In this document: positions 7,980 to 44,859 of the stretch, one piece after another
Numbering within the stretch: position 1 is the stretch's first letter
Layout: each line of letters begins with the position of its first letter
From: a virus
Direction: 5' to 3' (one strand)
DNA length: 44,859 bases
IMG/VR virus record: IMGVR_UViG_3300031841_003346
Location: 1 to 44,859 of that record
Program-made: the position numbers and the translations under genes
The notes under the pieces: model-generated
Told to the model about the DNA's origin: nothing
The model's input: only the letters and a program-made list of their open reading frames with translations
Database searches by the model: none

Positions 7980-8007
7980 TAAACAAGAACGTAAAGAGCA
8001 AGAAAAA

Positions 8008-8937: not shown

Positions 8938-8938
8938 A

Positions 8939-20769: not shown

Positions 20770-20978
20770 TGGCTGCTACAAAACCAGTAGAACTTGGCCC
20801 GTTTCAAACTATTTACGATAGCGACGATGAGGGTGTAATTAGAAAAGAACTAATTATATATAGAAAAGTAGGAGATCGAGTACTTCGTGAAACTGCTGTA
20901 CGTGAATATCATCGAGAAAGCGACTATCACGATTCACTCAGTGTAACCCCAATTTATTATGGAGACAAAGATGGCTGA
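20769..20978 (+). CDS. Hypothetical protein, 69 aa
   Basis: A small, charged, probably beta-rich protein with LGPFQTIYDSDDEGVIRKEL and IYRKVGDRVLRETAVREYHR. No known motif. The start shares a base with the folE stop (TAATG), and the end overlaps the next gene by eight bases, so it is a coupled operon member. Function unknown. Confidence 0.5.
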   Translation: MAATKPVELGPFQTIYDSDDEGVIRKELIIYRKVGDRVLRETAVREYHRESDYHDSLSVTPIYYGDKDG

Positions 20979-21156
20979 ACCAGTAGATATAAGTAAAAAG
21001 CACTTTTACATAAGTCTAGTAAAGAGTGCTGTGCGTATTGGTGCTGGGGCTGCTTTTGTAAGTAGTTTGTTTACACCAGTAATAGTAATGCCAGTTGTAG
21101 TAGGTGGTGCACTGCTAATTGCAGCAGAAGTTCTTGGCATCCTTGAGGAGCTTTAA
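20971..21156 (+). CDS. Small membrane protein, 61 aa
   Basis: I start at ATG 20971, which has TGGAGAC upstream; the ATG at 20959 is also possible. After KKHFYISLVKSAVRIG, most of the rest is hydrophobic (AGAAFVSSLFTPVIVM and VVVGGALLIAAEVLGI), room for one long or two short membrane helices, ending EEL. I recall similar tiny proteins in marine T4-like phages. Its stop shares a base with the queE start. Function unknown. Confidence 0.55.
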   Translation: MAEPVDISKKHFYISLVKSAVRIGAGAAFVSSLFTPVIVMPVVVGGALLIAAEVLGILEEL

Positions 21157-25987: not shown

Positions 25988-26024
25988 CAAAGCGCTTGAC
26001 TTTTCGAGCGCTTTGTTGTATTAT
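25988..26024 (+). promoter_or_regulatory. Promoter overlapping a 9-bp inverted repeat
   Basis: TTGACT (25996-26001), 17 bases, TATTAT (26019-26024), for the gene at 26052. Perfect inverted arms CAAAGCGCT (25988-25996) and AGCGCTTTG (26007-26015) surround the -35 with a 10-base loop. The repeat begins seven bases after the stop of the ATPase gene, so it may end that transcript, act as an operator, or both. There is no long T-tract after the stem. Confidence 0.65.
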
Positions 26025-26051
26025 ATACGTACATTAAAGAAAGGAAGCTTT

Positions 26052-28791: not shown

Positions 28792-30078
28792 ATGGCTTTA
28801 CAAATAAGACGTGGTACCGATGCCCAACGTTTAACAATTACACCTGCAGAAGGTGAATTAATCTACACCACTGACACAAAATTACTATATGTAGGCGACG
28901 GTTCGACCGCAGGCGGTACAAAAGCTGATACTGGTATTAACGATCTTTTAGAAGACACAACACCACAACTAGGCGGAAACTTAGATTTAAACAGTCAAGA
29001 TATAACCGGTGTTGGTAACATTAACAACAGCGGTAATATAACAGCATCAGGTGTAGTATCAGCAGCCAGTGGTAACTTTACAAACGGCACATTTGGTTTA
29101 GCTACTGGTAACTTTAAAGGTACTTTTGCAGCTGATGATAGTGTAATATTAATAGACGGTGTAAGTGGAAAAGTTAATTTAGCACCAAATGCAATAAATG
29201 ACATAGGCAATGTGGCTGCTCCTAATCCGTCAAATGGGGATGTGCTTGTATATAACACTAGTTCTGGCAATTGGGAAAGTGGCACTGCAAATGTTACAGG
29301 AAATTTGGTAGGATCTGTTTTTGCCGACGATAGTAAACTAATGATCGACGGTATAAGTGGTATTGCTTACGGACCATTTATAGGCGATCTTAATGGTTCT
29401 GTTTTTGGCGACCAAAGCACACAAATAGTCGACGGACAAAGTGGTAATATCCTTCCAGCCGCAATAATAGCTGTAGGTAATACACTAGATATTAATCCAC
29501 AAAGTACTGGCACAAACGAAATAATCTTAAATTCCACTGACGAACTTGGTATTTTAAGATTTAAAAGAACGCAAGCGGGTGATTTAGAAGGCAATACTAC
29601 AATTAGATATGGTAGTATTTTCTTTGAAAGAAACGACGACAATGGAACAAGAATTGTCAACCAAATTACTGGTAAGGAAGATGCCCTTTATTTTATTAAC
29701 AATCCAGACGGTGATTTTGAAGCACTTAGAGAAGAAACTTATCTTGCATGGATTGGAAATAAATTAGGTGTTGGCACATATGCACCTAGAGAGCACTTAG
29801 ATGTAAGAGGAAGTGCTATCATCGAAAGTGACCTAAAAGCTGCTGCAATTACTGGTGACTTAAAAGCTGACGATTCAACTGTAATTGTAGATGCTACAAC
29901 GCAAGGCGGTTCATTTACTACACTTGCTTCTAGTACTTCATTACAACTAGCAACTTATGCAGATGCTACTGCTAGAGATGCAGGAATAACTTCGCCTGCT
30001 AACGGAATGCTATGTTATCTAACAGGCACACATAAATTCCAAGGTTATGCTAACGGTGCATGGGTAGACTTGAACTAA
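28792..30078 (+). CDS. Tail fibre-like structural protein with internal repeats
   Basis: 428 residues. LQIRRGTDAQRLTITPAEGE and LIYTTDTKLLYVGDG form the small N-terminal domain common in phage fibres and tropism-determinant-like proteins. Then come Asn/Gly/Ser-rich strands with four copies of an F-x-x-D-x-S-x-x-[IL]-[IV]-D repeat (see 29119-29895). The C-terminus PANGMLCYLTGTHKFQGYAN with GAWVDLN is a compact fibre tip domain I know from marine phages. It should contact the host surface or connect to adhesins. AGGAG precedes the ATG and a late promoter drives it. Its stop overlaps the end of the convergent gene. Confidence 0.8.
   Translation: MALQIRRGTDAQRLTITPAEGELIYTTDTKLLYVGDGSTAGGTKADTGINDLLEDTTPQLGGNLDLNSQDITGVGNINNSGNITASGVVSAASGNFTNGTFGLATGNFKGTFAADDSVILIDGVSGKVNLAPNAINDIGNVAAPNPSNGDVLVYNTSSGNWESGTANVTGNLVGSVFADDSKLMIDGISGIAYGPFIGDLNGSVFGDQSTQIVDGQSGNILPAAIIAVGNTLDINPQSTGTNEIILNSTDELGILRFKRTQAGDLEGNTTIRYGSIFFERNDDNGTRIVNQITGKEDALYFINNPDGDFEALREETYLAWIGNKLGVGTYAPREHLDVRGSAIIESDLKAAAITGDLKADDSTVIVDATTQGGSFTTLASSTSLQLATYADATARDAGITSPANGMLCYLTGTHKFQGYANGAWVDLN
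29119..29895 (+). repeat. Four copies of a ~17-residue fibre repeat
   Basis: Within the fibre gene the encoded units are GTFAADDSVILIDGVSGK (29119 onward), GSVFADDSKLMIDGISG (29311), GSVFGDQSTQIVDGQSG (29395) and the more distant GDLKADDSTVIVDATTQG (29851). Consensus: G-[TSD]-[FVL]-x-[AG]-D-[DQ]-S-x-x-[IL]-[IV]-D. Probably repeating beta-strand turns in a trimeric shaft. Confidence 0.7.
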
Positions 30079-30087
30079 GATCTACCC
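30062..30087. terminator. Hairpin at the convergent gene junction
   Basis: GGGTAGA (30062-30068) and TCTACCC (30081-30087) can pair around a 12-base loop that contains both overlapping stop codons (TAA plus strand, TAG minus strand). The position suits a two-way terminator, but no T-tract follows on either strand, so it may be factor-dependent or only structural. Confidence 0.45.
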
Positions 30088-30773
30088 TTAAAAACGAAAC
30101 ATTGATTTATTTTGTTTACTTTATCATAAGTTTTTAGCCATCCTTCTTTATAGCAAGTAGGCCCTTTTACATACAATATGCCATTTTCTATCTTAGTATC
30201 ACAATACACTTGATCGCCTAAAATTATCGAACTTTTTAACATTTTTTGGTAGTGATCAACTTTGTCTATGCTTTCAAATACAGTATTAATTGTTATAGGA
30301 CCCACTTCACTCATGCCCCAGTTAGGCTGCACTGTTGCTCCTTTTTTAACAAATTCTCTTATCATTTCCCACGAAACTATATCACTGCCGCCTAATATCC
30401 ATTTTCCTTTCAAGCAACAATCTTGAAATCCTTTGGTCATCATTAGTGCATGCATATGCGCTGGAGTTAAAAAAGTATGTGTATAATCTTTAAAATCTTT
30501 TAAAAAACTAAAAGCATTAAAATTTTGAATTTTTAACTCTGCTCCAAGCACATGCGCTGGCAAACTTTGTGTAAGTAAACCACCAGCATGTGTCATACGT
30601 GTTACTGTTAGTACTTTACTGTTTTTTGAAAGCTTTTGTGCCTCTATAGCAACGGCAACTGATTCTTTTAAATTTTTCGATGTTCGAAATATTTTTTTTG
30701 GAGGTCCTGTTGTTCCGCTAGATGTTATAGAAACTCCATTTTTGTAAATTTCATCAAAATCAATAATAGGCAT
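30075..30773 (-). CDS. Truncated adenylate-forming enzyme (ANL/AMP-binding superfamily)
   Basis: 232 residues against 450-550 for complete family members. SSGTTGPPKK (18-27) is the ATP phosphate-binding motif. QPNWGMSEVGPI (149-160) is the adenine-binding [YF]-G-x-[TS]-E region, and EGWLKTYD (210-217) corresponds to G-W-x-x-T-G-D with Asp217 for the ribose. The large N-terminal part and C-terminal lid domain with its catalytic lysine are missing. It resembles a minimal MenE-like or NRPS-like adenylation core. It overlaps the aminotransferase gene by 14 bases, suggesting joint action on a carboxylic or amino acid, possibly with the ACP at 5712. Confidence 0.8.
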   Translation of the reverse strand: MPIIDFDEIYKNGVSITSSGTTGPPKKIFRTSKNLKESVAVAIEAQKLSKNSKVLTVTRMTHAGGLLTQSLPAHVLGAELKIQNFNAFSFLKDFKDYTHTFLTPAHMHALMMTKGFQDCCLKGKWILGGSDIVSWEMIREFVKKGATVQPNWGMSEVGPITINTVFESIDKVDHYQKMLKSSIILGDQVYCDTKIENGILYVKGPTCYKEGWLKTYDKVNKINQCFVFKGRS

Positions 30774-31584
30774 TATAGTGTGCTTGAAGTTGTTTTACAA
30801 CAACATTATTCTCATTATATTCTTTGTGGTCTACTTTTGCAACTTCGGTTATTCCGCCACTAGTACTACAAATAAAAACTGTATCAGCATTATACAACTC
30901 TATCGGCGTTATAGGCTTCCTAGTAAACTGTATTTGTAAGTCCCTGCAAATATCTTCAACAACTTCTATTGTAACACTGCCTAGAACATTTTCGCTTGGT
31001 GTATAAACCTGTTTATTTTTTACAATACACACGCCAAATCCTGGTCCTTCTGTAACAAAACCATTATAATCTAATACTAATGCACTTGTAAGATTTTGAG
31101 CATCTGCATATTTTTGTGCTTTAGTTAATTCAATCCAGCCAAAATTCTTATATTTTTGGGGATAAGATTTATCAGATACACGTCTATTGTTATAATCTAA
31201 AGTAAGCGAAACTTTATCATTTGATATATTGTAATAAGGCTTTACATACACTACCTGATGTTCAATTGCAGTCATATCTCTTGGACTTCCACTAGGCGGA
31301 GTCCCTCGCCAGTTACAAACCCAAACAAATGCATCGTCTAAATTATTTTTTTCTAGCAAATCTTTTGCAATTGTATCTATATTTGGAATAGGCGTAAATC
31401 CAAAATATTTACAACTATCTGTGTATCTATTTAAATGTTTTTGATAAAATAGTATATTTTGATTTTTTGTTTTCATCACATCGTAGGTTGCATCGCTATG
31501 AATAAATCCAAAATCTAATATACTGACACTAACATCTGCTATACTCTTAAAATTATTATTGTGCCAACAAATTAAATTATTCAT
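30760..31584 (-). CDS. Class IV PLP-dependent aminotransferase (BCAT/D-amino-acid transaminase-like)
   Basis: 274 residues, starting at the ATG at 31584 (a TTG at 31587 precedes it). SILDFGFIHSDATYDVM near the N-terminus is the class IV D-x-G-x-x-x-[GS]-[DE] segment. YKNFGWIELTKAQKYADAQN with Lys before N-F-G-W resembles the PLP-lysine region of IlvE. ALVLDYNGFVTEGPGFGVCI matches the G-x-[LV]-x-E-G segment, with Gly in place of the usual Asn, and STSGGITEVAKVD is the phosphate-binding end. It would swap amino groups between an amino acid and a keto acid, or act as a lyase. Substrate unknown. Confidence 0.85.
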   Translation of the reverse strand: MNNLICWHNNNFKSIADVSVSILDFGFIHSDATYDVMKTKNQNILFYQKHLNRYTDSCKYFGFTPIPNIDTIAKDLLEKNNLDDAFVWVCNWRGTPPSGSPRDMTAIEHQVVYVKPYYNISNDKVSLTLDYNNRRVSDKSYPQKYKNFGWIELTKAQKYADAQNLTSALVLDYNGFVTEGPGFGVCIVKNKQVYTPSENVLGSVTIEVVEDICRDLQIQFTRKPITPIELYNADTVFICSTSGGITEVAKVDHKEYNENNVVVKQLQAHYNAYY

Positions 31585-31840
31585 CAAAATGTACTTTCTT
31601 TAACTGCGGATCATCTGGTAATTTTTCTTTTAGTTTTTTAAGCCTAGCAATACGCCACTCGAGTAATTTAAAATCTAAAGCCCATGGGAATATAGCATGT
31701 AATAAGCTACCTAAACAAACAAGCAACAAAAAGAAAAATTCATCAATAGCTAGTCTAAAATGCCAAAAATAACCAGCTGATGGTTTATTTGCTTTTTCTT
31801 TGGCTTCTTTTAAATGATTCCAATTAATCCACGTACTCAT
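31577..31840 (-). CDS. Small membrane protein (DUF6356-like)
   Basis: 87 residues. PSAGYFWHFRLAIDEFFFLL continuing LVCLGSLLHAIFPWALDF has one or two membrane segments (about 30-55) and the pattern G-Y-x-x-H-x-x-x-A and [IL]-H-A-x-[FL]-P-[FW] that I associate with the uncharacterised DUF6356 family. A basic and acidic cytoplasmic tail (ARLKKLKEKLPDDPQLKKVH) follows. It overlaps its neighbours on both sides. Function unknown. Confidence 0.6.
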   Translation of the reverse strand: MSTWINWNHLKEAKEKANKPSAGYFWHFRLAIDEFFFLLLVCLGSLLHAIFPWALDFKLLEWRIARLKKLKEKLPDDPQLKKVHFDE

Positions 31841-32387
31841 TTGTTATTAAACTCCGACGTTTTAAATACTCATCTATATTTAGTTGCCATAAAGTTTGCT
31901 TTGTAAAAAACAGTTCTCTAGTACCACAATCTTTAAGAATACCCTGTTTTGCTAACAAGCCCATAAGTCTGTGATTGCGTGCAGCTTTTCCGTTTGAATG
32001 CTCATTATCTACATTAGTTGTTAGGTAAAGTTCATCTGACTGACAGTAGTCGATCATTTTAGGAATAAATTCACGTTGTGTGATACTATTCCAATCGCCC
32101 TTACTTAATCCTTTAAAATTATCAGTAAAAGGTAATTCGCATCCCCTAAAAAGAATACGCCAAGCTGATTTAGAGACTTCGGGCAACGGATGACATCCGC
32201 CTACAGCAATAATTTTTGCTCCTTTTAATGCACAATAATATTCTCCGTAAGACTTGCACCATTCTAATTTCATAGCTTCAAAACTAGAGTTATTTGTATA
32301 TCCTAGTTTTTCGCACTCTTTACAAAAATCTGCAAGCGCCCTTAGATGATAAGTTTTTATAGGAGTAACTTTAATTTTTTCTATCAC
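31824..32387 (-). CDS. Possible GNAT-type acetyltransferase, GTG start
   Basis: 187 residues starting at GTG 32387 with AGGA upstream. LRALADFCKECEKLGYTNNS and AMKLEWCKSYGEYYCALKGA with KIIAVGGCHPLPE look like the first half of a GNAT fold (x-x-G-x-x-x-V-G). LYLTTNVDNEHSNGKAARNH followed by RLMGLLAKQGIL resembles the late helix region, where N-x-x-[NS]-x-x-x-x-x-x-x-L-x-x-x-G occurs. The acetyl-CoA signature is weak, so I rank this as tentative. It fits in the cassette as an amine-acylating enzyme. Confidence 0.45.
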   Translation of the reverse strand: MIEKIKVTPIKTYHLRALADFCKECEKLGYTNNSSFEAMKLEWCKSYGEYYCALKGAKIIAVGGCHPLPEVSKSAWRILFRGCELPFTDNFKGLSKGDWNSITQREFIPKMIDYCQSDELYLTTNVDNEHSNGKAARNHRLMGLLAKQGILKDCGTRELFFTKQTLWQLNIDEYLKRRSLITNEYVD

Positions 32388-32388
32388 T

Positions 32389-32955
32389 TTATCCTAAAGA
32401 TACAACTAGATGATATCTTTCTTCCCTACTAGAATTTATTGCTGTATGATACTTCGTAGTATCAGTCCACACCCATTCATGTTTTTTCAAATGAACTGTT
32501 TCATTTTCTATGATCATTAAGCACCCTTCTTGTGTTTTTAAAGGATAGTGTATTCTTGGATGTGTATCTTTATGCCAAGATAAGCATGTTTTAGGTTTTA
32601 AATTCATTACTCTTACCCTGCCTATATTGTATAGTCTTTTCACTTTGCTAAAGACATCATCAAACCCTGTACCTTTAAATTGATTACATAAAACAGAAAA
32701 ATCGCTTTCTTTAAATTTTTCTTGCCTTTCTGGTACTATAATTTTTCCACTTTCGTCTTTATAGTTGTTATCCCAGTCGTAATGTAAACTGCCCCTACCG
32801 AGATGAATATCGTCTTCGTATCCAGGCACGGTGTTTATACATATTTGATCTTTGTTTAAAGGATGCCATTTAATAGCTCCTGAATCAATAAGATTTACAA
32901 ATTCACTCCATAAATCATAACATGGTAAATTATTTAAAACTTCAAAATTAGACAT
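32389..32955 (-). CDS. Aspartyl/asparaginyl beta-hydroxylase-like oxygenase
   Basis: 188 residues. RVRVMNLKPKTCLSWHKD gives H128 and D130 of the HxD iron site. RIHYPLKTQEGCLMIIEN with the following strand, DTTKYHTAIN (H170) and REERYHLVVSLG (2-oxoglutarate-binding Arg region) complete the double-stranded beta-helix core in the order expected for the Asp/Asn beta-hydroxylase family. It would hydroxylate a peptide side chain or small molecule using Fe(II) and 2-oxoglutarate. It has its own ATG and starts seven bases inside the upstream gene. Confidence 0.8.
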   Translation of the reverse strand: MSNFEVLNNLPCYDLWSEFVNLIDSGAIKWHPLNKDQICINTVPGYEDDIHLGRGSLHYDWDNNYKDESGKIIVPERQEKFKESDFSVLCNQFKGTGFDDVFSKVKRLYNIGRVRVMNLKPKTCLSWHKDTHPRIHYPLKTQEGCLMIIENETVHLKKHEWVWTDTTKYHTAINSSREERYHLVVSLG

Positions 32956-33697
32956 TGTATGTGCTTTCTATAATATTTATTGCGTTGAAAATGTCTATGC
33001 TAGTAGTAATTGATAATTGTAAAAAACTATCAGAAGTACAAACTTTGTCATATACTAAATTAGTGTTTACAGCATATAGCCTGTGTGGCTCGATATTTAC
33101 TTGTTCTACAAGATCAAAATTATCTTCGTATCTAATAGTTAAATTTTGCGGTTTATCAAATGCCCAAAATTGTATAAAAGTTGTAGGCATAACCATGTCT
33201 GTTCGAGGCGTTTCATTTGCGCCTACTTCCCAACGCTTAATGCTACTTCTAAGCATGTGTTGTTTAAAATTATTTAAAACACTAAAAACAGGATCATCTA
33301 ATACTTCGGTAGGAATTAAAAAATCATTTTCTAATGTAATATAATAATTTACAGCTCGATTTATGTCTTCCAAGTTACCAATAGAAACATCGTCTAAATC
33401 TAATTGTCCTGTTTTATTAACTAATGGTAATGCATATTGATTTTCATATATTTGCTTAGTTTCTTCATTTTTCCAAGATACAAAATACTTGTTAAATTTT
33501 TTACAGCAGTTATCAAAAAGATCTGCATCTAGTTTAATGTCTGTAGGATTCATAAAACTAGGCAACTTTTTTTCAAATGCATCTTGATCTAAGGATCGAA
33601 GCATCCTAAATTTATTGAAAACAGGCCTTGGATCACTATTGACTTTTTCTTGTTGATTTTGCAGCCATAACTTTGCTTTTAATATCTCATCAAGCAT
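32948..33697 (-). CDS. Hypothetical protein, possible cupin/oxygenase-like fold
   Basis: 249 residues from the ATG at 33697 (AGAGAAAG upstream, eight-base overlap with the radical SAM gene). The C-terminal third, FIQFWAFDKPQNLTIRYEDN and EPHRLYAVNTNLVYDKVCTS then DSFLQLSITT, reads like the last strands of a cupin or oxygenase barrel, but the H-x-D pair is not found. No other motif is recognised. It lies between a radical SAM gene and a hydroxylase gene and may bind the same substrate. Confidence 0.45.
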   Translation of the reverse strand: MLDEILKAKLWLQNQQEKVNSDPRPVFNKFRMLRSLDQDAFEKKLPSFMNPTDIKLDADLFDNCCKKFNKYFVSWKNEETKQIYENQYALPLVNKTGQLDLDDVSIGNLEDINRAVNYYITLENDFLIPTEVLDDPVFSVLNNFKQHMLRSSIKRWEVGANETPRTDMVMPTTFIQFWAFDKPQNLTIRYEDNFDLVEQVNIEPHRLYAVNTNLVYDKVCTSDSFLQLSITTSIDIFNAINIIESTYNV

Positions 33698-34808
33698 TAA
33701 ACTTTCTCTTAGGTATTTTACTATCAGCACTACTTACACAACTGTTTGTAATGCAAGGTTGTGGTTTATCGAATAATTTAAACCCAGTTTCTATGTTTCC
33801 TAAAGGAGCATCATGGCAACTATAGCTACGCTTAATTGATCCGTCAGGTTCTCGTATGATTATACCTTGATATCCAGCATTGCAACTCCATCCATTAAAG
33901 TTATTAAAGTTAAATGCGTTGAATCGCTCTGCTTGATCCATATACCATTTTTTACCTTTACTATCAGTAAATTCAACTTGCATATGCCAAGGTACACTTT
34001 TGTCGTTTTGCCCTATTACATATTCAGGTAGTTCAAAACTTGGTTTTGGTCTATTAGCCCATGTGCGTTTTACTTCAGTGTACGCCATCTGTGGCATTCC
34101 GTTGTATAAACGTTGTTTCATATCATCAGTATACCCGTCTACTACACGGCTAGCTGTGGGATCGCTTTGTGGCTTTAGTGTTACATTTATACCTTGTTCA
34201 TGAAAGAACAACGCATTGTCCCAGTCTTTCTCAAACCACTCTGGCACCATTACCATGTTGATGGTTACTTGTACATCATGCTCTTGACACAGTATAAGCT
34301 TGTCAGCAAAGTCCTGCATCTTCTCACGAGTGTTTAGGTGCTCTGTGTGTAGGCTAGCAGTGATACTAGCACGGTGGAACGGCTTTGCGTATTCTACATA
34401 CGTCTCAAACCACTTCTTGGGTCGAGAGCAGTTTGATGTCATATGAATACTAGTGTAATTGGTGTTATCAACGTCGTCAGCGAGATATTTAAGTATGTCA
34501 AGATAACCGGGATGAAAAGTAGGCTCGCCCCCACTAAGGCTGAAATGAAAGCTATTAAATCCATTGCCTCGGGCTTGTCGTTTGATTTCATCTATTGTCC
34601 TCAAACATAGTTCGGTTGGCCTGTGATCTTTTTTATCACTACGGGCATAGGGCCAGCAGTAGCTACAACGATAGTTACAGAAGCGTCCTAATAGCCAGCT
34701 TACTGTAAACAAGTCTCTGTATAATAAAGTACGCTGCCCTACTTGTACAATATCGTCAAATGGTATTTTTGTAAAGTCATAGTCTGACCATGTAAGGTCG
34801 TCCGTCAT
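33690..34808 (-). CDS. Radical SAM protein with SPASM-like C-terminus
   Basis: 372 residues. FCNYRCSYCW carries the Cx3Cx2C motif (C44, C48, C51) and SLSGGEP the SAM-binding GGE motif. A C-terminal cysteine set (GWSCNAG, YSCHDAP, QPCITNSC) would bind an auxiliary iron-sulfur cluster. NDKSVPWHMQVEFTDSKGKK is a strand region between the two parts. Its radical SAM core differs from the other six in this cassette. Such enzymes act on peptides or small molecules; the target here is unknown. ATGA overlap with the gene upstream implies a shared operon. Confidence 0.85.
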   Translation of the reverse strand: MTDDLTWSDYDFTKIPFDDIVQVGQRTLLYRDLFTVSWLLGRFCNYRCSYCWPYARSDKKDHRPTELCLRTIDEIKRQARGNGFNSFHFSLSGGEPTFHPGYLDILKYLADDVDNTNYTSIHMTSNCSRPKKWFETYVEYAKPFHRASITASLHTEHLNTREKMQDFADKLILCQEHDVQVTINMVMVPEWFEKDWDNALFFHEQGINVTLKPQSDPTASRVVDGYTDDMKQRLYNGMPQMAYTEVKRTWANRPKPSFELPEYVIGQNDKSVPWHMQVEFTDSKGKKWYMDQAERFNAFNFNNFNGWSCNAGYQGIIIREPDGSIKRSYSCHDAPLGNIETGFKLFDKPQPCITNSCVSSADSKIPKRKFNA

Positions 34809-36034
34809 TTAAATATTTTTCCAAAATAATCTAAATAATCTTTTTTGTACGTTTTAGAAAAGTACGCAAGATCATCATAAAGTAATTTATTACTAGCTAT
34901 ACTGTACTTATGATTATCAAGGGCTGTAAAAATATTTTGCCAACCAGATATACTGTAGCTGTCTTGTGAAGGAATACTAGAAATTTGATCATTTATTTTT
35001 TGTTTTACTGAATGTATTAACTCAGTAGGAACACTATTTAAAATCATCGATTGTGGTTCATAAATTATATTAGGCAGAATACGCATGTCATTATCATCTT
35101 CACAAAGAGATATATACCACGCAATTAACTCATCTATTTCTGTAATATTCAATGCATGAATTACAGGCACTAGACTTATCTGAATGTTGCCTTTTTGTTT
35201 TTTAAAATCTATTAACTTTCGAAGGTTAGTTTCGATCAAACTCCAATCAGAACCAAACCGCAAATAGTCATTTGTTCGACCAGCAGCGTCTATACTTAAA
35301 CCTAAATTAACGTGTTTAAATTCGCTTAACAACTCTAGTTGTTCGTCTGATATCATGCTTACATTTGTAGAACACCAAAAATTAATATTCTTTGCATGAC
35401 CTTTATCGACAACAGATTTAATATACTTCCATAGATTTTTTATGATAAAAGGTTCGCCGCCAGTTACATAAAGACGATTTAGTTTATGATCTATCTCGCT
35501 TAAACTTTGCCATAATTTTTCATTTTGATCTATATTACTTCTGTTGTTATACAAATGTCCTGCAAATCTATCTGGTCTATCTATTTCGTTTTTTACTGTA
35601 ATAGAGTGTAGTAAACTAGACCAAACAGGACTACACATAATACATGCGTAATTACATGTGTTAGAAACTTGCAAATTATAATAAGACGGTTGTATGCTTT
35701 TGCCTAATTCCCAATTTTCAAAAGTATTAACAAAATCTTCTCTAACAAATTCGTAGTCCATTAGTCTTTTACTAGAGTAACCTTGTTCTTCTTTTTCCCA
35801 ACACTGTTTGCATTGGGGTATTTTCTCACCTGCTAGTAATCTTTGTCTACTTTGATTATATACATCGCTGTTAAAAATTTCTTCTACGCTATGCTTGCTT
35901 GCATTAAGACCTATTGATTCTGCTTCGCAACAAAATTTAATATCACCGTTTGTTTCCATACTAAAGTGCTGCCATAAGTGTGGACAAAAATTTTCATAAT
36001 TTTTGACTTTGTTGTGATATTTGCTTAGATCCAT
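34805..36034 (-). CDS. Radical SAM protein with N-terminal twitch/SPASM-type Cys domain (series B)
   Basis: 409 residues with the unusual order auxiliary-cysteine domain first. FCPHLWQH (C17), IKFCCEAES (C35, C36) and IPQCKQCWEKEEQGYSSKR (C75, C78) precede the SAM-cluster motif CNYACIMC (C127, C131, C134) and the VTGGEPF motif. Later segments (LSIDAAGRTNDYLRFGSDW, SLVPVIHALN) share the pattern of the gene at 42395. Two [4Fe-4S] clusters are likely. It belongs to one of two paralogous series in the cassette. Function not known. Confidence 0.85.
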   Translation of the reverse strand: MDLSKYHNKVKNYENFCPHLWQHFSMETNGDIKFCCEAESIGLNASKHSVEEIFNSDVYNQSRQRLLAGEKIPQCKQCWEKEEQGYSSKRLMDYEFVREDFVNTFENWELGKSIQPSYYNLQVSNTCNYACIMCSPVWSSLLHSITVKNEIDRPDRFAGHLYNNRSNIDQNEKLWQSLSEIDHKLNRLYVTGGEPFIIKNLWKYIKSVVDKGHAKNINFWCSTNVSMISDEQLELLSEFKHVNLGLSIDAAGRTNDYLRFGSDWSLIETNLRKLIDFKKQKGNIQISLVPVIHALNITEIDELIAWYISLCEDDNDMRILPNIIYEPQSMILNSVPTELIHSVKQKINDQISSIPSQDSYSISGWQNIFTALDNHKYSIASNKLLYDDLAYFSKTYKKDYLDYFGKIFK

Positions 36035-38229: not shown

Positions 38230-39452
38230 TATTCGTCCTCCAATACGTCTACAATTTTCTTTACATGATCAAACGTATCAGCAATGTCTACTCCACGTCT
38301 AGCACTCACGCCTTCTAAAAACCATTTTAATTTTCGCCATGTATCTATATTATTATTCATTGCAATATTACTTTTAATATTTTCTAAATGCTTTATCCAA
38401 TGAACTGCGTTATAAGTCATATTTTCAGCTGGATTTATCATAAGTGATTTTTTAATTGCTTCGTCAATTATAGATTCATAATCTTCACCTAGCATAAATG
38501 GGCTTAAATAGTCTGGTCCGTAAATTACATTAGTAGCAAATGCCCATCCATTTTGATACCTATCTTTACCTAGTAAGTTTGTAAAGTAATCTATGTATTC
38601 TACAATATAAGGCAAAGAGAAAACATTAATAGACGGCATTAAAACAACGTTTGCTGTACTATTGTTTACTTTTAGCAAATTATCAATGCAAGTATCAAAT
38701 TCGCTACGATATCTAATAGCATTGTTCCTATCATACAAGTCATCAATACTTGCCATAAACAACCATTTTATATTTGGGTTATCGTTTACCAGTTTTATAA
38801 ACTTGTCCATTTGCTTAGGTTTAGTATTAAAATTACTCGTAATATGAATGTTTATATCGTCAGATTTATCTTTAACAATTTCTACAATATTTTCAATCAA
38901 ATCAAATGTTTCGTTATTGTATGTAGGCTCACCGCCACTAAAACTAAAAACCAATCCGTCAGGTAAATTAGAATAATCCTTTTGCTCTAAGTAGGCATAA
39001 AAGTTTTTTACTAGTTGATTCTTCCATTCGGGATCTGTTTTTACAATAGGAATATTCATTTCCTTAGCCCAAGTACTACTGTTTTCGGCATTACAGTATA
39101 TACACGCTAGATCACAAGCAGTGGAACTTACAATTTCAAAGTAAAATAAATGATCTGTGTTTTCTATTTCTTCACGTTTGCTATCTCTAGTAGGTTCTGG
39201 CCATTTATTCCAAAACTTACGCATGCTATTAGGTTCTGTTTTTGCACAAAAATTGCACGCATCTGGTAATTTGTTTTCCCATAAATGTGTTTTACGTCTT
39301 TCCACTAACTCTCTGTGTTTTAAGAAAACCATAGGACCATGCTCTTGCATATCTTCTATAGTAAAATCTGTCTCGTCAGTTTTACAACAGCTCTTTACAC
39401 TATGGGCAAATAATCTTAAATTAAGATCCGTAAATTGCTTACTACATATCAT
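38229..39452 (-). CDS. Radical SAM protein with N-terminal Cys domain (series B)
   Basis: 408 residues from the ATG at 39452 (a TTG at 39476 is rejected as it overlaps the divergent gene). MICSKQF (C3), VKSCCKTDE (C22, C23) and LPDACNFCAKTEPNSMRK (C66, C69) precede CDLACIYC (C113, C117, C120) and FSFSGGEPTYN. The order and spacing parallel the gene at 34805, but the N-terminal part is shorter and its first cysteine has a different setting. It is the first gene of the left minus-strand operon. Confidence 0.8.
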   Translation of the reverse strand: MICSKQFTDLNLRLFAHSVKSCCKTDETDFTIEDMQEHGPMVFLKHRELVERRKTHLWENKLPDACNFCAKTEPNSMRKFWNKWPEPTRDSKREEIENTDHLFYFEIVSSTACDLACIYCNAENSSTWAKEMNIPIVKTDPEWKNQLVKNFYAYLEQKDYSNLPDGLVFSFSGGEPTYNNETFDLIENIVEIVKDKSDDINIHITSNFNTKPKQMDKFIKLVNDNPNIKWLFMASIDDLYDRNNAIRYRSEFDTCIDNLLKVNNSTANVVLMPSINVFSLPYIVEYIDYFTNLLGKDRYQNGWAFATNVIYGPDYLSPFMLGEDYESIIDEAIKKSLMINPAENMTYNAVHWIKHLENIKSNIAMNNNIDTWRKLKWFLEGVSARRGVDIADTFDHVKKIVDVLEDE

Positions 39453-39475
39453 GAAATATTTAGCACACAAGTTCA

Positions 39476-40819
39476 ATGTGTAAATACTTTATGAGAAAGA
39501 CTTTACGCAATGATGTCATAATATATATTATCGATGACGAAGAAATACAAGACCCCCTTGCAAAACAAATATACTATAATTTACTCGAAGGAACAGTTCG
39601 ACACGATGTTTTGTACAAATATTTCACTTCTTTTGATGAAGCATTTGAATCTTTAGCTACAGAAACAAGTAAGTTTGCACTGTTTACAAAACTGTCTAAC
39701 ACGTTTGATCCTATACATATGTCGTATTTGTTAGAAGAGAATCTACATGACAATGCACTACTAGGACACATTTTAGATTTTGGTGACAGATATTATCAAT
39801 TACACAATCAGTGTTTTGTTATCAGTAGTAAAGCCTATCAAAAATGCGGAAGTCCAAAATACGGTTATAGCAAAAATGTTTCATTAGTCAACATTGAACG
39901 CTCCGAAGATAACTTTCATGATCACTATACTCCAATATGGATGCGCAAAGGAAAAGGCAGCAAGTCATATAGTTTTGTTGAAAAAGGCGGCGAAATAATT
40001 TCAAAACTTTTAGAAAATGGATACTCCATAAGTCCGTTTACTGATGAGCAGCGTAGACATAAATTTTTTATGTATAACGACTTCACACAAAAATGGGGTA
40101 GTTACCTACGTATAGAAACTAATCTAAGTGACATAGTTTTTAACTGTGCTACAGAACCGTTAATGAAAGAAAAAAATACAGATATACATCGTATTGTAAC
40201 TCCAGCTAACGGGCTTCAAGCATTAGCTATTATAGACAAATGTCCAAATGTACATACTATTGAATTCAATGATATCAACGAAAAACAATTAGAATTTACA
40301 CGTCATATTGTACAAAATTACACAGGTGAAAATTTTGCTGATTTATGCTTTAGCGGCAATTATCATTTACACGTAAGCGATAGAAATGTTATAAATGATT
40401 ACGAAAAACAATTTTTAGAAAACTTATCCACTAACTTTAGTGATCTTAAACAAAGATTACAAAAAATGAGTATTCATTTTGAACGAAAAAGCTTTTTTGA
40501 AATCGAACAATTCAAACATAGTGTTCGCACCAATAGAAATACTTTATATAACTTCAGTAATATTCTATCTTACAAAAAAACTTATTACTTGTATAGCCAA
40601 ATACACTTCAATTTAATGATAAAGATACTTGCATCAGCTGAGTGTAAAGCAGGTAATAAAAGTATTATTCGTGGGATTTTACCTAGCAGTGAAACAGATT
40701 CTCCCGGATTTTGTAATACTCCAGTATCACAACTAACAAATAATCCCGATCCTATTGTAAATTACGAATGGAGGAAAGATCTTTATGAATACTACACAAG
40801 CTATCTCGAACTTCTTTGA
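39476..40819 (+). CDS. Two-part protein with methyltransferase-like C-terminal half
   Basis: 447 residues (442 if ATG 39491 is used; neither start has a good ribosome site). The first half (YIIDDEE, then LHNQCFVISSKAYQKCGSPK and DHYTPIWMRKGKG) is a module I have seen in marine phages near hydroxylase genes. The second half has RIVTPANGLQALAIIDKCPN followed by VHTIEFNDINEKQLEFT, resembling the SAM-binding glycine loop region and acidic strand of class I methyltransferases, though G-x-G-x-G is not intact. YNFSNILSYKKTYYLYS fits later strands. Its 3' end overlaps the next gene by 35 bases. Function tentative. Confidence 0.5.
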   Translation: MCKYFMRKTLRNDVIIYIIDDEEIQDPLAKQIYYNLLEGTVRHDVLYKYFTSFDEAFESLATETSKFALFTKLSNTFDPIHMSYLLEENLHDNALLGHILDFGDRYYQLHNQCFVISSKAYQKCGSPKYGYSKNVSLVNIERSEDNFHDHYTPIWMRKGKGSKSYSFVEKGGEIISKLLENGYSISPFTDEQRRHKFFMYNDFTQKWGSYLRIETNLSDIVFNCATEPLMKEKNTDIHRIVTPANGLQALAIIDKCPNVHTIEFNDINEKQLEFTRHIVQNYTGENFADLCFSGNYHLHVSDRNVINDYEKQFLENLSTNFSDLKQRLQKMSIHFERKSFFEIEQFKHSVRTNRNTLYNFSNILSYKKTYYLYSQIHFNLMIKILASAECKAGNKSIIRGILPSSETDSPGFCNTPVSQLTNNPDPIVNYEWRKDLYEYYTSYLELL

Positions 40820-41507
40820 ACAACGTAGACAAGAAAAACATTATGATAATGTAAAAGCTATTCCAAGCAATTTTTCCGATGATGAAAAATTAGAATGGAT
40901 AATAAATGAATCTAATATTACAACTTTACGTTTAGACATAGAAATGCCTTATCGTGAAATGTATAAAGAGGCTGCTTCTTTGCTTCCTGAATTTTATGCA
41001 CATAGAACTGATGGCGAATCTCATGCAGGGTGGAAAAGTCTAGTGTTACACGGTAGAGGTAAACACATTACTCAAGGTGACGACCAATACCCTAACTTGG
41101 ACGAATTGCCTGATATGCACTGGACAGAAATAGCTGATAAATGTCCTGTTACTACTAACTTTTTTAAAAATAATTTACCGTTAGATCAATACTTACGTGT
41201 AAGATTTATGCTTCTTGAACCAGGTGGATATATACTACCGCATAGAGATAATGACAAAAATAAATTACAAGCATTTAATTTTGCCTTAAATAATCCGGAG
41301 GATTGCTTTTTTGGTATGGAAGGTACAGGTCTAGTACCATGGCAGTCGGGCGATTCTAGAATTATTAACATAAGCACAAATCATGCTGTTTGGAACAACA
41401 GCAATACACCAAGAATACACATGATTGCTCACGGATGGGCAAAACACAAATACAAAGAATATAGAGATTGTGTAATTAGAAGTTACAACAAACTAATCAC
41501 ATCTTAG
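40785..41507 (+). CDS. Aspartyl/asparaginyl beta-hydroxylase-like oxygenase
   Basis: 240 residues; GGAGGAAAG precedes the ATG. LRVRFMLLEPGGYILPHRDN has H153 and D155 (HxD), NHAVWNNSNTPRIHMIAHG has H200 and R210, and FNFALNNPEDCFF with MEGTGLVPWQSGD are the strands between. The order matches Fe(II)/2-oxoglutarate Asp/Asn beta-hydroxylases and the paralogue at 32389, but with a longer N-terminal part. With its upstream neighbour it forms a plus-strand island in a minus-strand cassette, converging on the next gene with an 11-base overlap. Confidence 0.8.
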   Translation: MNTTQAISNFFEQRRQEKHYDNVKAIPSNFSDDEKLEWIINESNITTLRLDIEMPYREMYKEAASLLPEFYAHRTDGESHAGWKSLVLHGRGKHITQGDDQYPNLDELPDMHWTEIADKCPVTTNFFKNNLPLDQYLRVRFMLLEPGGYILPHRDNDKNKLQAFNFALNNPEDCFFGMEGTGLVPWQSGDSRIINISTNHAVWNNSNTPRIHMIAHGWAKHKYKEYRDCVIRSYNKLITS

Positions 41508-42393
41508 CTTGTTCTTTGCGCCAATCTGCTAATAGATCATCATCCAGTTCTACAAGATAAGTTAACAGTAGACCCATCTTTGCGTTCCACATTTTCATCT
41601 TTTTGTCTTTAGATCCTTCGTTGCTGTTATGCAATTGTACAGCGTCAAAACTCATTGCTGTTCCTGGAACCCAATCATAAACTTCTTCTATGCTTAATCC
41701 CTGGAGTCTATCATAAGGAGTATTCATAAACTGCTTGTGAGTTTCTTTATCAAACGGTGTGGCATTGTTTTCTTTAGGTATAGCATTTCCGTTGCCATCA
41801 TGGAATTGTAAGTCTGTGTAATCTGTTGATATTTTATAAACACTTGCTATGTTAGGAACAAGAGCGCCGCCGTTATATACGTGTGCCCAGTCAATATGCC
41901 TTTGGTCAAAGAAAGCTATTTGACCTCCATCAACTTCGTCATGGTGAGTGCCAATCCATAGTGGCATTAGAAAGTTTTTCCATGTTGTATATTTTCGACG
42001 TTCGTGATTCAAAGGCGTCCACTTGTAAGTATTCTCAAAATCTTCAGGACGTATACTATCGTTATGCAAGCCATACTGCTGTGGTGTAATAAAATAATTT
42101 CCGCCTATGCTAGGTGATTGTTCTGCCTTAGGCCCCAAAAGACTATCAATACGTTCTTTATATTGAAAATATATTTCTTGTAAATCACCAGCTACTAAAA
42201 CAGTGCCATTTCTATTCATGCGAGGCTGTCTATTAGATCTAAAACATTGTTTCCATATGTCGTCTAGCTCATCTTTTGTAAACACATCATCATAAAGTTC
42301 TGCTTTAGATATATGTCTACGCATGTTCTCTACTGCAATAGGATGATCCATCGGTAGCATATAATGCTCTCTTAAATATTCATTTACAACCAT
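41497..42393 (-). CDS. 2-oxoglutarate/Fe(II)-dependent oxygenase-like protein
   Basis: 298 residues. GGNYFITPQQYGLHNDSIRP gives H110 and D112, and DWVPGTAMSFDAVQLHNSN gives the distal His255, with K272 in AKMGLLLTYL where an Arg or Lys binds the 2-oxoglutarate carboxylate. Spacing between the metal ligands (about 143 residues) resembles phytanoyl-CoA-type oxygenases more than the two beta-hydroxylase-like proteins here. VDGGQIAFFDQRHIDWAH lies between. It follows the radical SAM gene at 42395 after one base, so both are probably made together. Substrate unknown. Confidence 0.75.
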   Translation of the reverse strand: MVVNEYLREHYMLPMDHPIAVENMRRHISKAELYDDVFTKDELDDIWKQCFRSNRQPRMNRNGTVLVAGDLQEIYFQYKERIDSLLGPKAEQSPSIGGNYFITPQQYGLHNDSIRPEDFENTYKWTPLNHERRKYTTWKNFLMPLWIGTHHDEVDGGQIAFFDQRHIDWAHVYNGGALVPNIASVYKISTDYTDLQFHDGNGNAIPKENNATPFDKETHKQFMNTPYDRLQGLSIEEVYDWVPGTAMSFDAVQLHNSNEGSKDKKMKMWNAKMGLLLTYLVELDDDLLADWRKEQAKM

Positions 42394-42394
42394 A

Positions 42395-43804
42395 TCAAAG
42401 TCCTTTAAAAATATCTTTCATTTCCGGAAATACTGTTTTCCAGTTGAGTCCACGCTGCTTATCGCATAATTCGATAAATTCTTTTGTTTCAGGAAGTCGA
42501 ACACTCCAATCTTCACTTTCCATAAACTGCAACATACCTTCTAATCGTTTTATGCCGTAATCGGCATCACGCCATTGCTCATATTCTACTTTACCTTTGT
42601 GCCAAGCAGGTATACTTTTTTCCCAGTTAGCTTCCCACCAAGGATAAAAATCTTCGTATTTCTTACGACATTCTGCTTTAAACCATTCTGGCAAAACTTT
42701 TACATTTAAGTGCGGTGGGTGATAAACAAAATGATAGTTTATGCCGCCTGCGCCAAACGGCCACATGTTTATTTTGTTATACCCTTGGGTAACTTTCCAT
42801 TTTATAAAATCAGGAAGATAATAAACATTAAGTGCTTGTACTGCACATGCAACTGTTATTTCTACATTGTCGCCTGTTTGCTCGTCTAATATTCTAAATA
42901 CTTCTTCAGTACGACTCCATTGACTTGGGTAACGTATATAGTCATTCATTTCATGTATGCTATCAACACTGTAATGAAATCTTACAAGTTTGAACTCTTT
43001 CCATAAATCAAACAAATCATCCCGCCATTCAACACCATTTGAATTATAGCGCAACTCAAGATTTTTTGCATGACCTTGTCGTATGCATTCTTCTAGTATT
43101 TCGTAGTGCTCTTCGATAATTAGACTTTCGCCGCCGGCAAAATATATCTGCTGCATGTTAGGAATTTGATCGTAAAATTGTTCCCAAAACACAGGGTTTT
43201 GTTTGTGCCAGTTATAACTGCTTCCGTTATAACTGCCTTTGTCTTTCCACTGCATAGTAGTTTTTAAACTTGCATTTTCCACTTCAGGGAAGATTGCTTT
43301 GTAATCTTTTATCCATCCGCTACTATCATGTGGCGAACACATTACACACGCTAATTGACATTTGGTGCCAAAGCGCAAGTCAATATATGCTAACTGCGGC
43401 GGCACACTACCATCATCAAGGGTTTCTTCTATAAGTTTATCAACATCAACTCGCTGACTCCAATAGTGTGTTTCCCACTGACGCTTACTGCGATGACCTG
43501 CTGCTTCTTCCTTAAAACACTTTACACAACTCGGCGGAACTTCGCCATTAAGCATTTGCTTACGCACATTTTTCATATATGTGCTGTTCCAACTACTTAA
43601 AAAATCACTTACATTAAGATTGTTTGGTTTGCCATCTTCAGTTTTAAGAATGCCTACTTGACCGCCGTGCTCTTTATCATTAGTAGGCCCAACACTACTT
43701 GCATTTGCTGTACAGCAAACACGCATACTACCGTCGGGTCGTGTACTCAAGTGTACCCACGGTAAAATGCAAAAAGTGTCAGATGGATATTTTGTCTCGT
43801 TCAT
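42395..43804 (-). CDS. Radical SAM protein with N-terminal twitch-type Cys domain (series B)
   Basis: 469 residues, the longest of the group. FCILPWVHLSTRPDGSMRVC (C12, C30, C31) and PPSCVKCFKEEAAGHRSKR (C93, C96) form the N-terminal auxiliary domain. Then LRFGTKCQLACVMCSPHDSS holds the SAM cluster (C149, C153, C156) and FAGGESLI the GGE motif. VDSIHEMNDYIRYPSQW corresponds to the same core as the gene at 34805. A helical C-terminal extension (about 390-469) is rich in Trp and Glu. Likely two iron-sulfur clusters; function unknown. Confidence 0.85.
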   Translation of the reverse strand: MNETKYPSDTFCILPWVHLSTRPDGSMRVCCTANASSVGPTNDKEHGGQVGILKTEDGKPNNLNVSDFLSSWNSTYMKNVRKQMLNGEVPPSCVKCFKEEAAGHRSKRQWETHYWSQRVDVDKLIEETLDDGSVPPQLAYIDLRFGTKCQLACVMCSPHDSSGWIKDYKAIFPEVENASLKTTMQWKDKGSYNGSSYNWHKQNPVFWEQFYDQIPNMQQIYFAGGESLIIEEHYEILEECIRQGHAKNLELRYNSNGVEWRDDLFDLWKEFKLVRFHYSVDSIHEMNDYIRYPSQWSRTEEVFRILDEQTGDNVEITVACAVQALNVYYLPDFIKWKVTQGYNKINMWPFGAGGINYHFVYHPPHLNVKVLPEWFKAECRKKYEDFYPWWEANWEKSIPAWHKGKVEYEQWRDADYGIKRLEGMLQFMESEDWSVRLPETKEFIELCDKQRGLNWKTVFPEMKDIFKGL

Positions 43805-43813
43805 ATGCAGTAC

Positions 43814-44859
43814 TTATTTGAATTGCGCACCAAAAGGATCAAACTCGGCTCCGCACTTCATAGCACAAACTTTTAACTTGCCTTCTTTCACACTAGATTT
43901 TTGCCAACTACTTTCTATATTATCAAAAATACCAGTATCAAATATAGCTTTCAAACCGTGTGTTTTTGCATTTAACGCATCCTTGCCGCCGGCATCGTCA
44001 ATAAAGTCCCATATTTGTTCTACTTTAGGATCTTTGTGCCACCATTTATACATACGTCCAGCAGTCCAACAACAGGGTAAAGCTAACCCTTCTGCTGTGA
44101 TATATAAATTACCTTCGTCTTTTACTTTACAAATTATTGGTGTTTTGTCATAGTAATTTTCCATATCACCGTGTTTAGATATTACTTGATCTATTTCGCT
44201 TACTGCTTTATTTCTATATTTTTTATCTGGCTGCTTTAATTCTGCTGTTGATTTACCTTTGCGATTCACTGCTTGATGCTTGTCTTTTTTCTCGCTATTG
44301 GCATTCACAAAACGACCTGTCTTTTTTGCTACGAATTTTTCAAAACCTAACTCTTCACTTAACGCTTTAGCTTCGTCTACTTGATGTTGATTATGTTCAA
44401 ATATTAAAAAATCCCACCTTGCACGTCCGCCAGCTTTTGTAAAAGCTCGCATGCTACGTTCAACATGTTCCCATACTACCCCTTGACGATATATATGATT
44501 AGTGTCAGATAAACCATCAACGCTAAAAATAACAGCCCCCATGCGGCCAAAGGTACTTGCGAGTTCTTGCCACCACGTTTCATCTCTTGCTCCTGCGTTT
44601 GTATTCATACTTAGCCACATATTAGAATTATGTTGCCTAAAATATTTAAAAATCTCTAATGTGTCACGTGCTACAATAGGATCGCCTAGATTACCGCACA
44701 TGTACATTGTTTTAAGTTGTGCAATAAATTCAGGTTCAAAAATACGCTTGCAATCGTCTATCGTAAGCTCACTTAAATCAATATGTGGATTTAAAGCGCC
44801 GCCATTTTGATTACGGTCACACATAGGACAACTAGCTTGACATTTCTGTGTATTCTCTA
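43814..44859 (-). CDS. Radical SAM/SPASM protein (series A), N-terminus beyond window
   Basis: The frame is open to the right edge, giving about 348 residues. The upstream residues read NTQKCQASCPMCDRNQ, a Cx3Cx2C motif, so the ATG at 44824 lies inside the motif and is not the start. MCGNLGDPIVA replaces the usual GGEP loop, and SVDGLSDTNHIYRQGVVWEH is the series A core. ITAEGLALPCCWTAGRMYKW and KVCAMKCGAEFDP hold the C-terminal cluster cysteines. It is the first visible gene of the right minus-strand operon, which continues outside the window. Confidence 0.85.
   Translation of the reverse strand, partial: ENTQKCQASCPMCDRNQNGGALNPHIDLSELTIDDCKRIFEPEFIAQLKTMYMCGNLGDPIVARDTLEIFKYFRQHNSNMWLSMNTNAGARDETWWQELASTFGRMGAVIFSVDGLSDTNHIYRQGVVWEHVERSMRAFTKAGGRARWDFLIFEHNQHQVDEAKALSEELGFEKFVAKKTGRFVNANSEKKDKHQAVNRKGKSTAELKQPDKKYRNKAVSEIDQVISKHGDMENYYDKTPIICKVKDEGNLYITAEGLALPCCWTAGRMYKWWHKDPKVEQIWDFIDDAGGKDALNAKTHGLKAIFDTGIFDNIESSWQKSSVKEGKLKVCAMKCGAEFDPFGAQFK

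Follow-up and report, generated by a model that had tools for sequence, protein, structure and literature searches.

Islands with several radical S-adenosylmethionine (SAM) genes have been reported in phages before. In 2010 they were recorded, with no function known, in the Campylobacter phages CP220 and CPt10, for which the passages of PMC2853527 that deal with them give 11 and 12 radical SAM proteins per genome, call this number 'highly unusual' and describe the region as an interchangeable module. For pelagimyophages, the sections of PMC7029224 on the host recognition cluster place tail fibres, glycosyltransferases (GT8 being the commonest) and radical SAM cassettes in one variable island, and read the island's glycosyltransferases as modifying the host surface. 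Here we analyse a locus of this type from the IMG/VR virus record IMGVR_UViG_3300031841_003346, a linear sequence of 44,859 bases, the whole of which is called the window below; its 16-gene cassette runs from position 30075 to the window end. A sequence-only reading of the window had stated that single radical SAM genes occur in marine phages, which understates what is in print, given the multi-radical-SAM phages and cassettes described in these two papers. Tail-region radical SAM islands are already known; what is new is a defined core, its conservation across phages and a bacterial counterpart. As defined from sequence, the core comprises three predicted radical SAM families (rSAM-E, rSAM-A and rSAM-B, hereafter E, A and B), the putative hydroxylase AspH1, usually paired with the two-domain protein g5, two GT8-like proteins and the families Y and X, all beside tail-fibre genes. 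Our literature searches, with most subscription journals and preprints outside their coverage, recognised no description of this core. The cassette is real, non-random and not ordinary housekeeping, and its probable role is the decoration of surface molecules, which may be the fibres of the virus itself.

Only a portion of the locus lies in the window, which we read as the 3' part of a putative modification cassette in the tail region of a marine jumbo phage of T4-like type; the 'complete pathway' proposed earlier is therefore not shown. A related contig (L020; loci are numbered L and genome records G) encodes proteins that are 99-100% identical to those of the window where the two overlap, and runs on past position 44859. 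Upstream of rSAM-A it encodes, from the tail-fibre side, F proteins (319 and 315 amino acids, aa), the 107-aa protein p115, two GT8-like proteins and a 171-aa protein; these are followed by an 878-aa protein in which two Y domains are combined with a single X domain, by a protein of 74 aa and by three more open reading frames (ORFs). Farther upstream lie a Collar-domain protein and an ORF that spans at least 3,530 aa. F is a tail-region family named solely for its position beside the tail-fibre genes. The cassette is read in the direction of the tail-gene series, with the exception of the AspH1-g5 pair. According to domain matches, Y-Y-X forms a single ORF in L020, as Y-Y does in L012. The glycosyltransferase labels of the GT8-like and Y families are weak: the former matches glycogenin by profile with an E-value of 0.001, the one member tested having no Pfam match, and the latter has a conserved DxD, while profile searches with Y and X against the PDB gave no usable match.

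The recurrence of the core was followed through g5. A scan with the single g5 sequence gave no match, and an alignment was used instead; among 2.9 million viral contigs it found 92 relatives, the best 80 of which were kept and fell into 14 groups at 70% g5 identity. Many of these loci are near-copies, so group counts are fairer than locus counts. AspH1 adjoins g5 in 71 of the 80 loci, and 13 of the 14 groups contain such a pair at least once; locus L110 lacks AspH1, and in its group the two genes are adjacent in 4 of 10 loci. With thresholds of at least 180 bits for E, 150 for A, 90 for X and 400 for B, these families were present in 65, 67, 66 and 47 of the 80 loci, respectively, many loci being cut by contig ends; counted by groups, E and A each occur in 8 of 14. 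Two arrangements are seen. Jumbo-phage contigs have the order p115, GT8a, GT8b, a protein of ~180 aa, Y, Y, X, a 74-aa protein, A, B, the oxygenase-like g3, AspH1-g5 and E, which in L012, L015 and L023 varies by fusions and insertions. A second T4-like group (such as L090, L098 and L099) has p115, GT8a, GT8b, a protein of ~200 aa, Y1, Y2, E, A, X, AspH1, g5 and a B-type gene. F lies at most three ORFs upstream of GT8a in 35 of the 41 loci with at least two ORFs before GT8a (near-copies included); the six loci without it are near-copies that start close by, and in the record behind one of them (G003) F sits right there. The genes thus behave as a unit, the core recurring together in diverged phages and, in part, in Bdellovibrionia-type genomes, and are not scattered singly, the pattern that would have refuted the earlier reading. 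The conserved gene order suggested earlier holds for the core, in its two arrangements, and fails for the remainder, which differs strongly between phages.

Within the window, the gaps between neighbouring cassette genes range from -41 to +9 bp, which bears out the tight packing reported from sequence and leaves no space for a precursor peptide gene, none having been obvious earlier either. The CxxxCxxC motif occurs in 7 of the 16 genes (33690, 34805, 36035, 37177, 38229, 42395 and 43814), whereas shuffling each cassette protein in 2000 trials gave 0.047 genes with the motif on average and 2 at most; the PF04055 cut-off of 29.5 bits is passed by six of the seven. The count of seven radical SAM genes therefore stands, as do the class IV transaminase, the truncated ANL enzyme and the tail-fibre-like gene alongside. 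A hydrophobic segment is predicted in a single 87-aa protein, and none of the 16 genes has two or more. The genes are as follows.

28792-30078, plus strand: convergent neighbour of the cassette, a tail-fibre-like gene with an Mtd_N domain (PF18454, 45.9 bits)
30075-30773, minus strand: truncated ANL (adenylation) core, ending at GR(S/L) (PF00501, 53.7 bits)
30760-31587, minus strand: class IV aminotransferase (PF01063, 127 bits)
31577-31840, minus strand: 87-aa protein with one hydrophobic segment (DUF6356, 20.2 bits, below the cut-off of 24.4)
31824-32387, minus strand: possible GNAT-type acyltransferase, unproven (weak structure-profile match)
32389-32955, minus strand: AspH2, Asp/Asn beta-hydroxylase-like (PF05118, 43.3 bits)
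32948-33730, minus strand: g11, 260 aa (no Pfam match above cut-off, no PHROG match)
33690-34808, minus strand: rSAM-E, a strongly conserved core member (PF04055, 61.4 bits)
34805-36034, minus strand: rSAM-B3, twitch radical SAM (NF033640, 280 bits; PF13186, 30 bits)
36035-37177, minus strand: rSAM-A3 (CxxxCxxC; PF04055, 28.8 bits, just short of 29.5)
37177-38229, minus strand: rSAM-A2, with a SPASM domain (PF04055, 45.3 bits; PF13186, 29.3 bits)
38229-39476, minus strand: rSAM-B2, twitch radical SAM (NF033640, 180 bits)
39476-40819, plus strand: g5, with a GT-A-like domain (about 7-206) and a Rossmann/methyltransferase-like domain (about 210-418) (structure model)
40785-41507, plus strand: AspH1, Asp/Asn beta-hydroxylase-like (PF05118, 65.7 bits)
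41497-42393, minus strand: g3, a 2-oxoglutarate (2OG)/Fe(II) oxygenase-like protein (HxD...H motif)
42395-43804, minus strand: rSAM-B, N-terminal twitch radical SAM (NF033640, 423 bits; PF04055, 36.3 bits)
43814-44857, minus strand: rSAM-A, with conserved C-terminal cysteines, clipped by the window edge (PF04055, 31.6 bits; alignment A11)

Three of the radical SAM proteins (42395, 34805 and 38229) pass the 170-bit cut-off of NF033640, an NCBIfam twitch-domain radical SAM model whose name gives no function; the other four (43814 in its L020 copy, 37177, 36035 and 33690) stay below it, with 43.7-50.5 bits. The protein encoded at 36035 can be aligned with the other radical SAM proteins despite its PF04055 score. 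In rSAM-E, the motif cysteines C44, C48 and C51 and four others, C309, C331, C352 and C357, are invariant in all 7 aligned proteins, and relatives of this protein are present in Bdellovibrionia-type genomes. The rSAM-A gene encodes 347 aa in the window, where the edge cuts it, and 359 aa in L020, the two copies being 99% identical.

The three HxD...H genes listed by the sequence-only reading were also recovered. AspH1 and AspH2 pass the PF05118 (Asp_Arg_Hydrox) cut-off of 22.6 bits and conserve the HxD...H ligands; in the AspH1 family H153, D155, H200 and R210 are invariant in 16 of 16 proteins. The third, g3, has no Pfam match and is recognised by H110, D112 and H255, invariant in 7 of 7 aligned proteins. 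The structure prediction recommended earlier was run for g5 and g3. The g3 model is poor (pLDDT 54.6) and was counted as weak support only, its Foldseek matches including GriE and prolyl hydroxylase and most of those listed having the double-stranded beta-helix fold of 2OG oxygenases. For g5 (pLDDT 78.8), which has no Pfam or NCBIfam match, a two-domain fold was obtained, with LH3, GlyE and COLGALT1 among the top Foldseek matches (E-values 4e-5 to 5e-4); its first domain gives Z of 8-9 to several GT-A proteins (VIA), the second resembles NNMT (Z 7.9) and class I methyltransferases. The earlier label 'methyltransferase-like' thus fits the Rossmann domain and is too narrow for the whole protein, since a GT-A-like domain precedes it. 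We regard g5 as likely to combine the GT-A and Rossmann fold classes in the model, with no claim about donor or acceptor. Its frequent pairing with AspH1 would suggest a scheme of 'hydroxylate, then glycosylate', as in collagen. The hydroxylysine glycosylation of collagen is similar in that a hydroxylase-like gene usually adjoins a GT-A-like protein here and that LH3 and COLGALT1 are among the top matches; it differs in that the hydroxylase family here is PF05118 and that the TM-scores are low.

No capsid gene was found in the window, so the type of phage was assigned via shared synteny. Among 18 g5-bearing records, chosen by hand and mainly longer ones, 9 have a match to the Gp23 capsid protein. 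For the two capsids tested, the nearest relatives are those of the Sinorhizobium phage Phosso, Vibrio phage 2.275.O and jumbo phages of Pseudomonas, Pectobacterium, Cronobacter and Erwinia; the largest contig among the g5 carriers has 364,554 bases. Judged by these sequences, the g5 carriers are T4-like, and of the jumbo kind where a capsid was tested. The idea that contigs of 100-145 kb belong to pelagimyophages was dropped, the capsid of G013 being nearest to those of jumbo phages. The first 28 kb of the window carry jumbo-phage-type genes (DNA polymerase, GTP cyclohydrolase, a QueE-like radical SAM protein, exonuclease, a MoxR-type ATPase and a VWA/metallopeptidase protein), and the protein encoded at 17809 shares ~46% identity with proteins from jumbo phages of Pseudomonas and Sinorhizobium. 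The QueE-like gene at 21156 counts as the eighth radical SAM gene of the window and stands apart from the cassette; together, the GTP cyclohydrolase and QueE-like genes (20086-22049) suggest a 7-deazaguanine (preQ0-type) pathway. The region 26013-27287 is labelled 'HNH endonuclease' by PHROG 1314 and has DUF2201 metallopeptidase and VWA-like domains in Pfam, so that the PHROG label is likely to be a misannotation. The T4-type late-promoter motif has a single site in the window, at 27544, and none in the cassette.

Among isolates, Phosso (PV764938) has the capsid protein nearest to that of the L023 phage (72.6%). At 184.9-193.0 kb it carries a minus-strand radical SAM block with four CxxxCxxC ORFs, directly behind tail genes that have homologues in the core phages: its 4,555-aa virion structural protein matches their ORFs of 3,530-3,563 aa (E-values 9e-95 and 1e-91), its 199-aa protein matches one of 203 aa (7e-74), and its 626-aa fibre homologue matches the fibre series (best E-value 6e-46) and the Collar-domain protein (2e-19). 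Unlike the core phages, Phosso gives only distant matches to the E-like and B2 profiles; a search of a 48-kb stretch returned no match to E, A, B, AspH, g5, X or Y. These tail-gene homologies strengthen the case for the place of the cassette and leave that for its target unchanged. One ORF of the block (L171, 4527-5624; XYS97444), annotated 'oxidoreductase', has CxxxCxxC and an E-like radical SAM profile match (E-value 5e-7). CP220 and CPt10 share packed radical SAM genes, and CP220 has, by profile, the A2 and E-like families (E-values 5e-35 and 9e-25); it differs in its putative amidinotransferase, a glycine amidinotransferase domain being absent from Pfam scans of the 16 cassette genes, and in that the 24.6-kb stretch searched gave no profile match to AspH1, g5, B, Y or X. 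A single island here combines genes for tail fibres with glycosyltransferase-like and radical SAM genes, as it does in the pelagimyophage host recognition cluster, whose own position is between VrlC and gp14. The Pelagibacter phage Mosig EXVC030M has A/A2, X, AspH and E-like profile matches near tail-fibre genes, and none to B, g5, Y or the GT8 family in the 24.6-kb stretch searched. Among 50,697 phage records, single-sequence tblastn queries at an E-value of 1e-5 found no match to relatives of E (from L060), g5 (L095) and Y (L023) or to the window's own ANL, acetyltransferase-like and g3 proteins, nulls that are no proof of absence; matches were found for B (two, partial, 25%), A2 (four, partial, 30%) and the transaminase (eleven, 19-25%).

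A single scan of bacterial genomes, carried out with E, yielded 43 loci. Eighteen weak or distant ones (L139-L156) were set aside, as were five contigs of metagenome-assembled genomes judged phage-like by gene content (L114, L115, L116, L127 and L128), among which L115 alone has a jumbo-phage marker, the VWA protein. The 20 loci left are titled Bdellovibrionales, Bdellovibrionia, Bacteriovoracaceae, Halobacteriovoraceae, Oligoflexia and, in one case, just 'bacterium'. E scores at least 400 bits in 18 of them; of these 18, 13 have both A (at least 300 bits) and B (at least 580 bits), 9 have Y and 8 have X. In the class of G031, E was found in 15 of 143 genomes, a patchy distribution. The neighbours include seryl-tRNA synthetase (L120, on a 936-kb contig) and TrmD with PheT (L126), both by eye, and a MoxR-type ATPase by Pfam (L119). 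A phage-like series F - p115 - GT8a - GT8b - Y stands beside E and B at 11231-15642 of L126, from Bdellovibrionales, where a mis-joined contig is possible. GT2-family ORFs with CxxxCxxC were observed in L133 (13684-15186, with the motif near the N-terminus, ahead of the GT2 domain), L136 (14195-15700) and L131 (6437-9385); the notion that this family is a radical SAM-GT2 fusion was abandoned, since at most 3 of 7 members qualify by motif. Two separate phage acquisitions of E were also considered; in a test run without the long-branched row L137, a single phage clade was not rejected (approximately unbiased test, p-AU 0.41, 22 rows), and we make no claim. According to the part of PMC10769870 on prey recognition, Bdellovibrio recognises prey with phage-like fibre proteins, which makes a fibre link attractive, without testing it.

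The genes at the tail-fibre-like end of the window belong to the variable part. The transaminase (30760) has fold-IV amine and branched-chain transaminases as its nearest structures (E-value 2e-39). The ANL match (PF00501 cut-off 29.9 bits) covers positions 169-378 of the 384-position profile, and the core stops at GR(S/L) in the window (30075-30773), in L006 (16733-17509) and in L116 (8958-9671), with lengths of 232-258 aa; the common stop point in three lineages argues for a stable truncated family and not for decay. A full ANL enzyme has a C-terminal domain with the catalytic lysine. This domain is absent from all three copies, so the ANL core is not a complete adenylating enzyme. For the possible acetyltransferase (31824) of the sequence-only reading, the label is not secure: there is no Pfam GNAT match in the window, L047 or L116 copies, the one match of the window copy being YecR, below its cut-off, and there is a weak profile match to the GNAT structure 3t9y (E-value 0.0025). 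It is 69% identical to its relative in L006 and 55% to that in L116. In L006 (L007 and L008 stretches show the same genes) the four genes from the acetyltransferase-like one to the ANL core, including the 87-aa gene and the transaminase, are retained at 61-76% identity. Six genes separate the transaminase from the ANL core there: one of IMPDH type, one weakly GT2-like, one for a methyltransferase, one of 186 aa without a Pfam match and two for radical SAM proteins, whose B12-binding matches are over the cut-off in one case and weak in the other. L116, a locus with radical SAM genes whose contig was binned as a gammaproteobacterium, has relatives of the acetyltransferase-like, transaminase and ANL genes; an Fe-S biosynthesis carrier (PF01521) was seen at 7045-7356 and, by eye, an IMPDH-type gene at 7928-8965. 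The acetyltransferase-like/transaminase/ANL sub-module thus recurs in three settings with differing neighbours, as might be expected under diversifying selection. A scan with the ANL core recovered L011 alone (a second stretch of the contig of L005), although L006 has a 70% relative; single-sequence scans therefore miss relatives.

The sequence-only reading left the target open; the data favour a glycan-type or protein decoration, for which any particular substrate and chemistry are putative. With somewhat less than even confidence, we propose that the cassette makes a tailored glycan-like decoration and attaches it, virion fibres being the likeliest acceptor. Radical SAM enzymes and the hydroxylase would create or uncover the points of attachment and remodel units of sugar or amino acid, while glycosyltransferase-like proteins would attach the decoration. 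The version that each phage has would come from its variable genes, namely the transaminase, the ANL core, the acyltransferase-like gene and the oxygenases. The acceptor would be a virion protein, most likely the tail fibres of the adjoining genes, which is the least certain step; decorated fibres may adsorb differently or be shielded, and the E-A-B part in Bdellovibrionia may serve a related modification of surfaces or adhesins. The absence of any cassette gene with two or more hydrophobic segments fits a soluble cytoplasmic acceptor better than polysaccharide export, although the host could supply export. Several observations weigh against this proposal. For g5, the whole-chain Foldseek TM-scores are low (0.18-0.27 in 19 rows with E-values up to 0.001), a Z of 8-9 barely exceeds the values of models without clear relatives, and GT-A is a common fold. 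Neither E nor A lies in the locus in 5 of the 14 g5 groups. In the Bdellovibrionia-type loci, AspH1 and g5 are found with none of the 18 strong E matches, some of these contigs having just 4-10 kb, and the genes of polysaccharide type in a number of loci (epimerase, asparagine synthase, GT2) favour a glycan target. By profile search, F was present in one of 13 E-carrying Bdellovibrionia-type genomes (G034, also the positive control) and in none of the 143 genomes of the G031 class, a set without G034; F as a general substrate of the E-A-B trio was accordingly rejected. A more specific scheme, in which the radical SAM proteins E, A and B modify tail fibres together with the hydroxylase-glycosyltransferase pair and bacterial predators share part of the system for fibre-like adhesins, strikes us as unlikely. 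It would be the first radical SAM system known to us to act on virion proteins, no search aimed at this having been made.

As the main rival reading, it is possible, if doubtful, that the cassette remodels the surface glycan of the infected host instead (O-chain or capsule), its radical SAM and oxygenase enzymes tailoring unusual sugars or amide groups, and so blocks superinfection. The glycosyltransferases of the pelagimyophage island, where radical SAM cassettes also occur, are read in this way in the relevant sections of PMC7029224, and the variable gene sets resemble O-antigen loci. Some Bdellovibrionia-type E-A-B loci stand beside an epimerase and an asparagine synthase (L133, by Pfam) and beside GT2-type genes (by their N-termini); proteins with at least three hydrophobic segments are present in 5 of 5 such loci scanned, and the GT2 family recurs in Bdellovibrionia-type loci (by Pfam in L133, by similarity in the others), 3 of 7 members carrying CxxxCxxC. 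Yet no flippase, polymerase or other multi-pass membrane protein is seen among the 16 window genes, and in Phosso as well as in the jumbo and second T4-like groups the cassette's place is linked with fibre genes. That the product is a small diffusible molecule or a modified peptide, whether natural-product-like or a ribosomally synthesised and post-translationally modified peptide (RiPP), is rather improbable. Radical SAM/SPASM proteins with oxygenases, a transaminase and an ANL core make a natural-product-like mix, and related loci have in addition genes for B12-radical SAM, IMPDH-type and Fe-S carrier proteins, but the cassette gaps leave no room for a precursor gene, Pfam detects no carrier protein among the 16 genes, the ANL core lacks its C-terminal domain in all three lineages, and the upstream 74-aa ORF shows even similarity along its length in two copies (by eye), not a leader plus core. 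A RiPP cluster was rejected, with no precursor gene between the cassette genes and the region beyond the window checked by eye. We consider it highly improbable that the radical SAM genes are viperin-like or otherwise nucleotide-modifying, serving host takeover or counter-defence. Viperins are the best PDB and PADLOC profile matches of E, but the prokaryotic viperin model (viperin_w_prok) scores 39.9 bits for E and 42.3 for 34805 against a cut-off of 180, the match is confined to the radical SAM core and covers it partially, and E has its four additional invariant cysteines; a viperin-like function was rejected on these grounds.

One of the islands of the kind noted in 2010 now has a defined core, a recurring place behind tail-fibre genes, a Bdellovibrionia-type counterpart and an isolated relative in Phosso. 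With the core, the place and the isolate, the target of the island becomes a testable question. Should the fibre be the target, radical chemistry would serve phages as a means of diversifying receptor binding; with the host glycan as target, the island would represent a new chemistry of superinfection exclusion.

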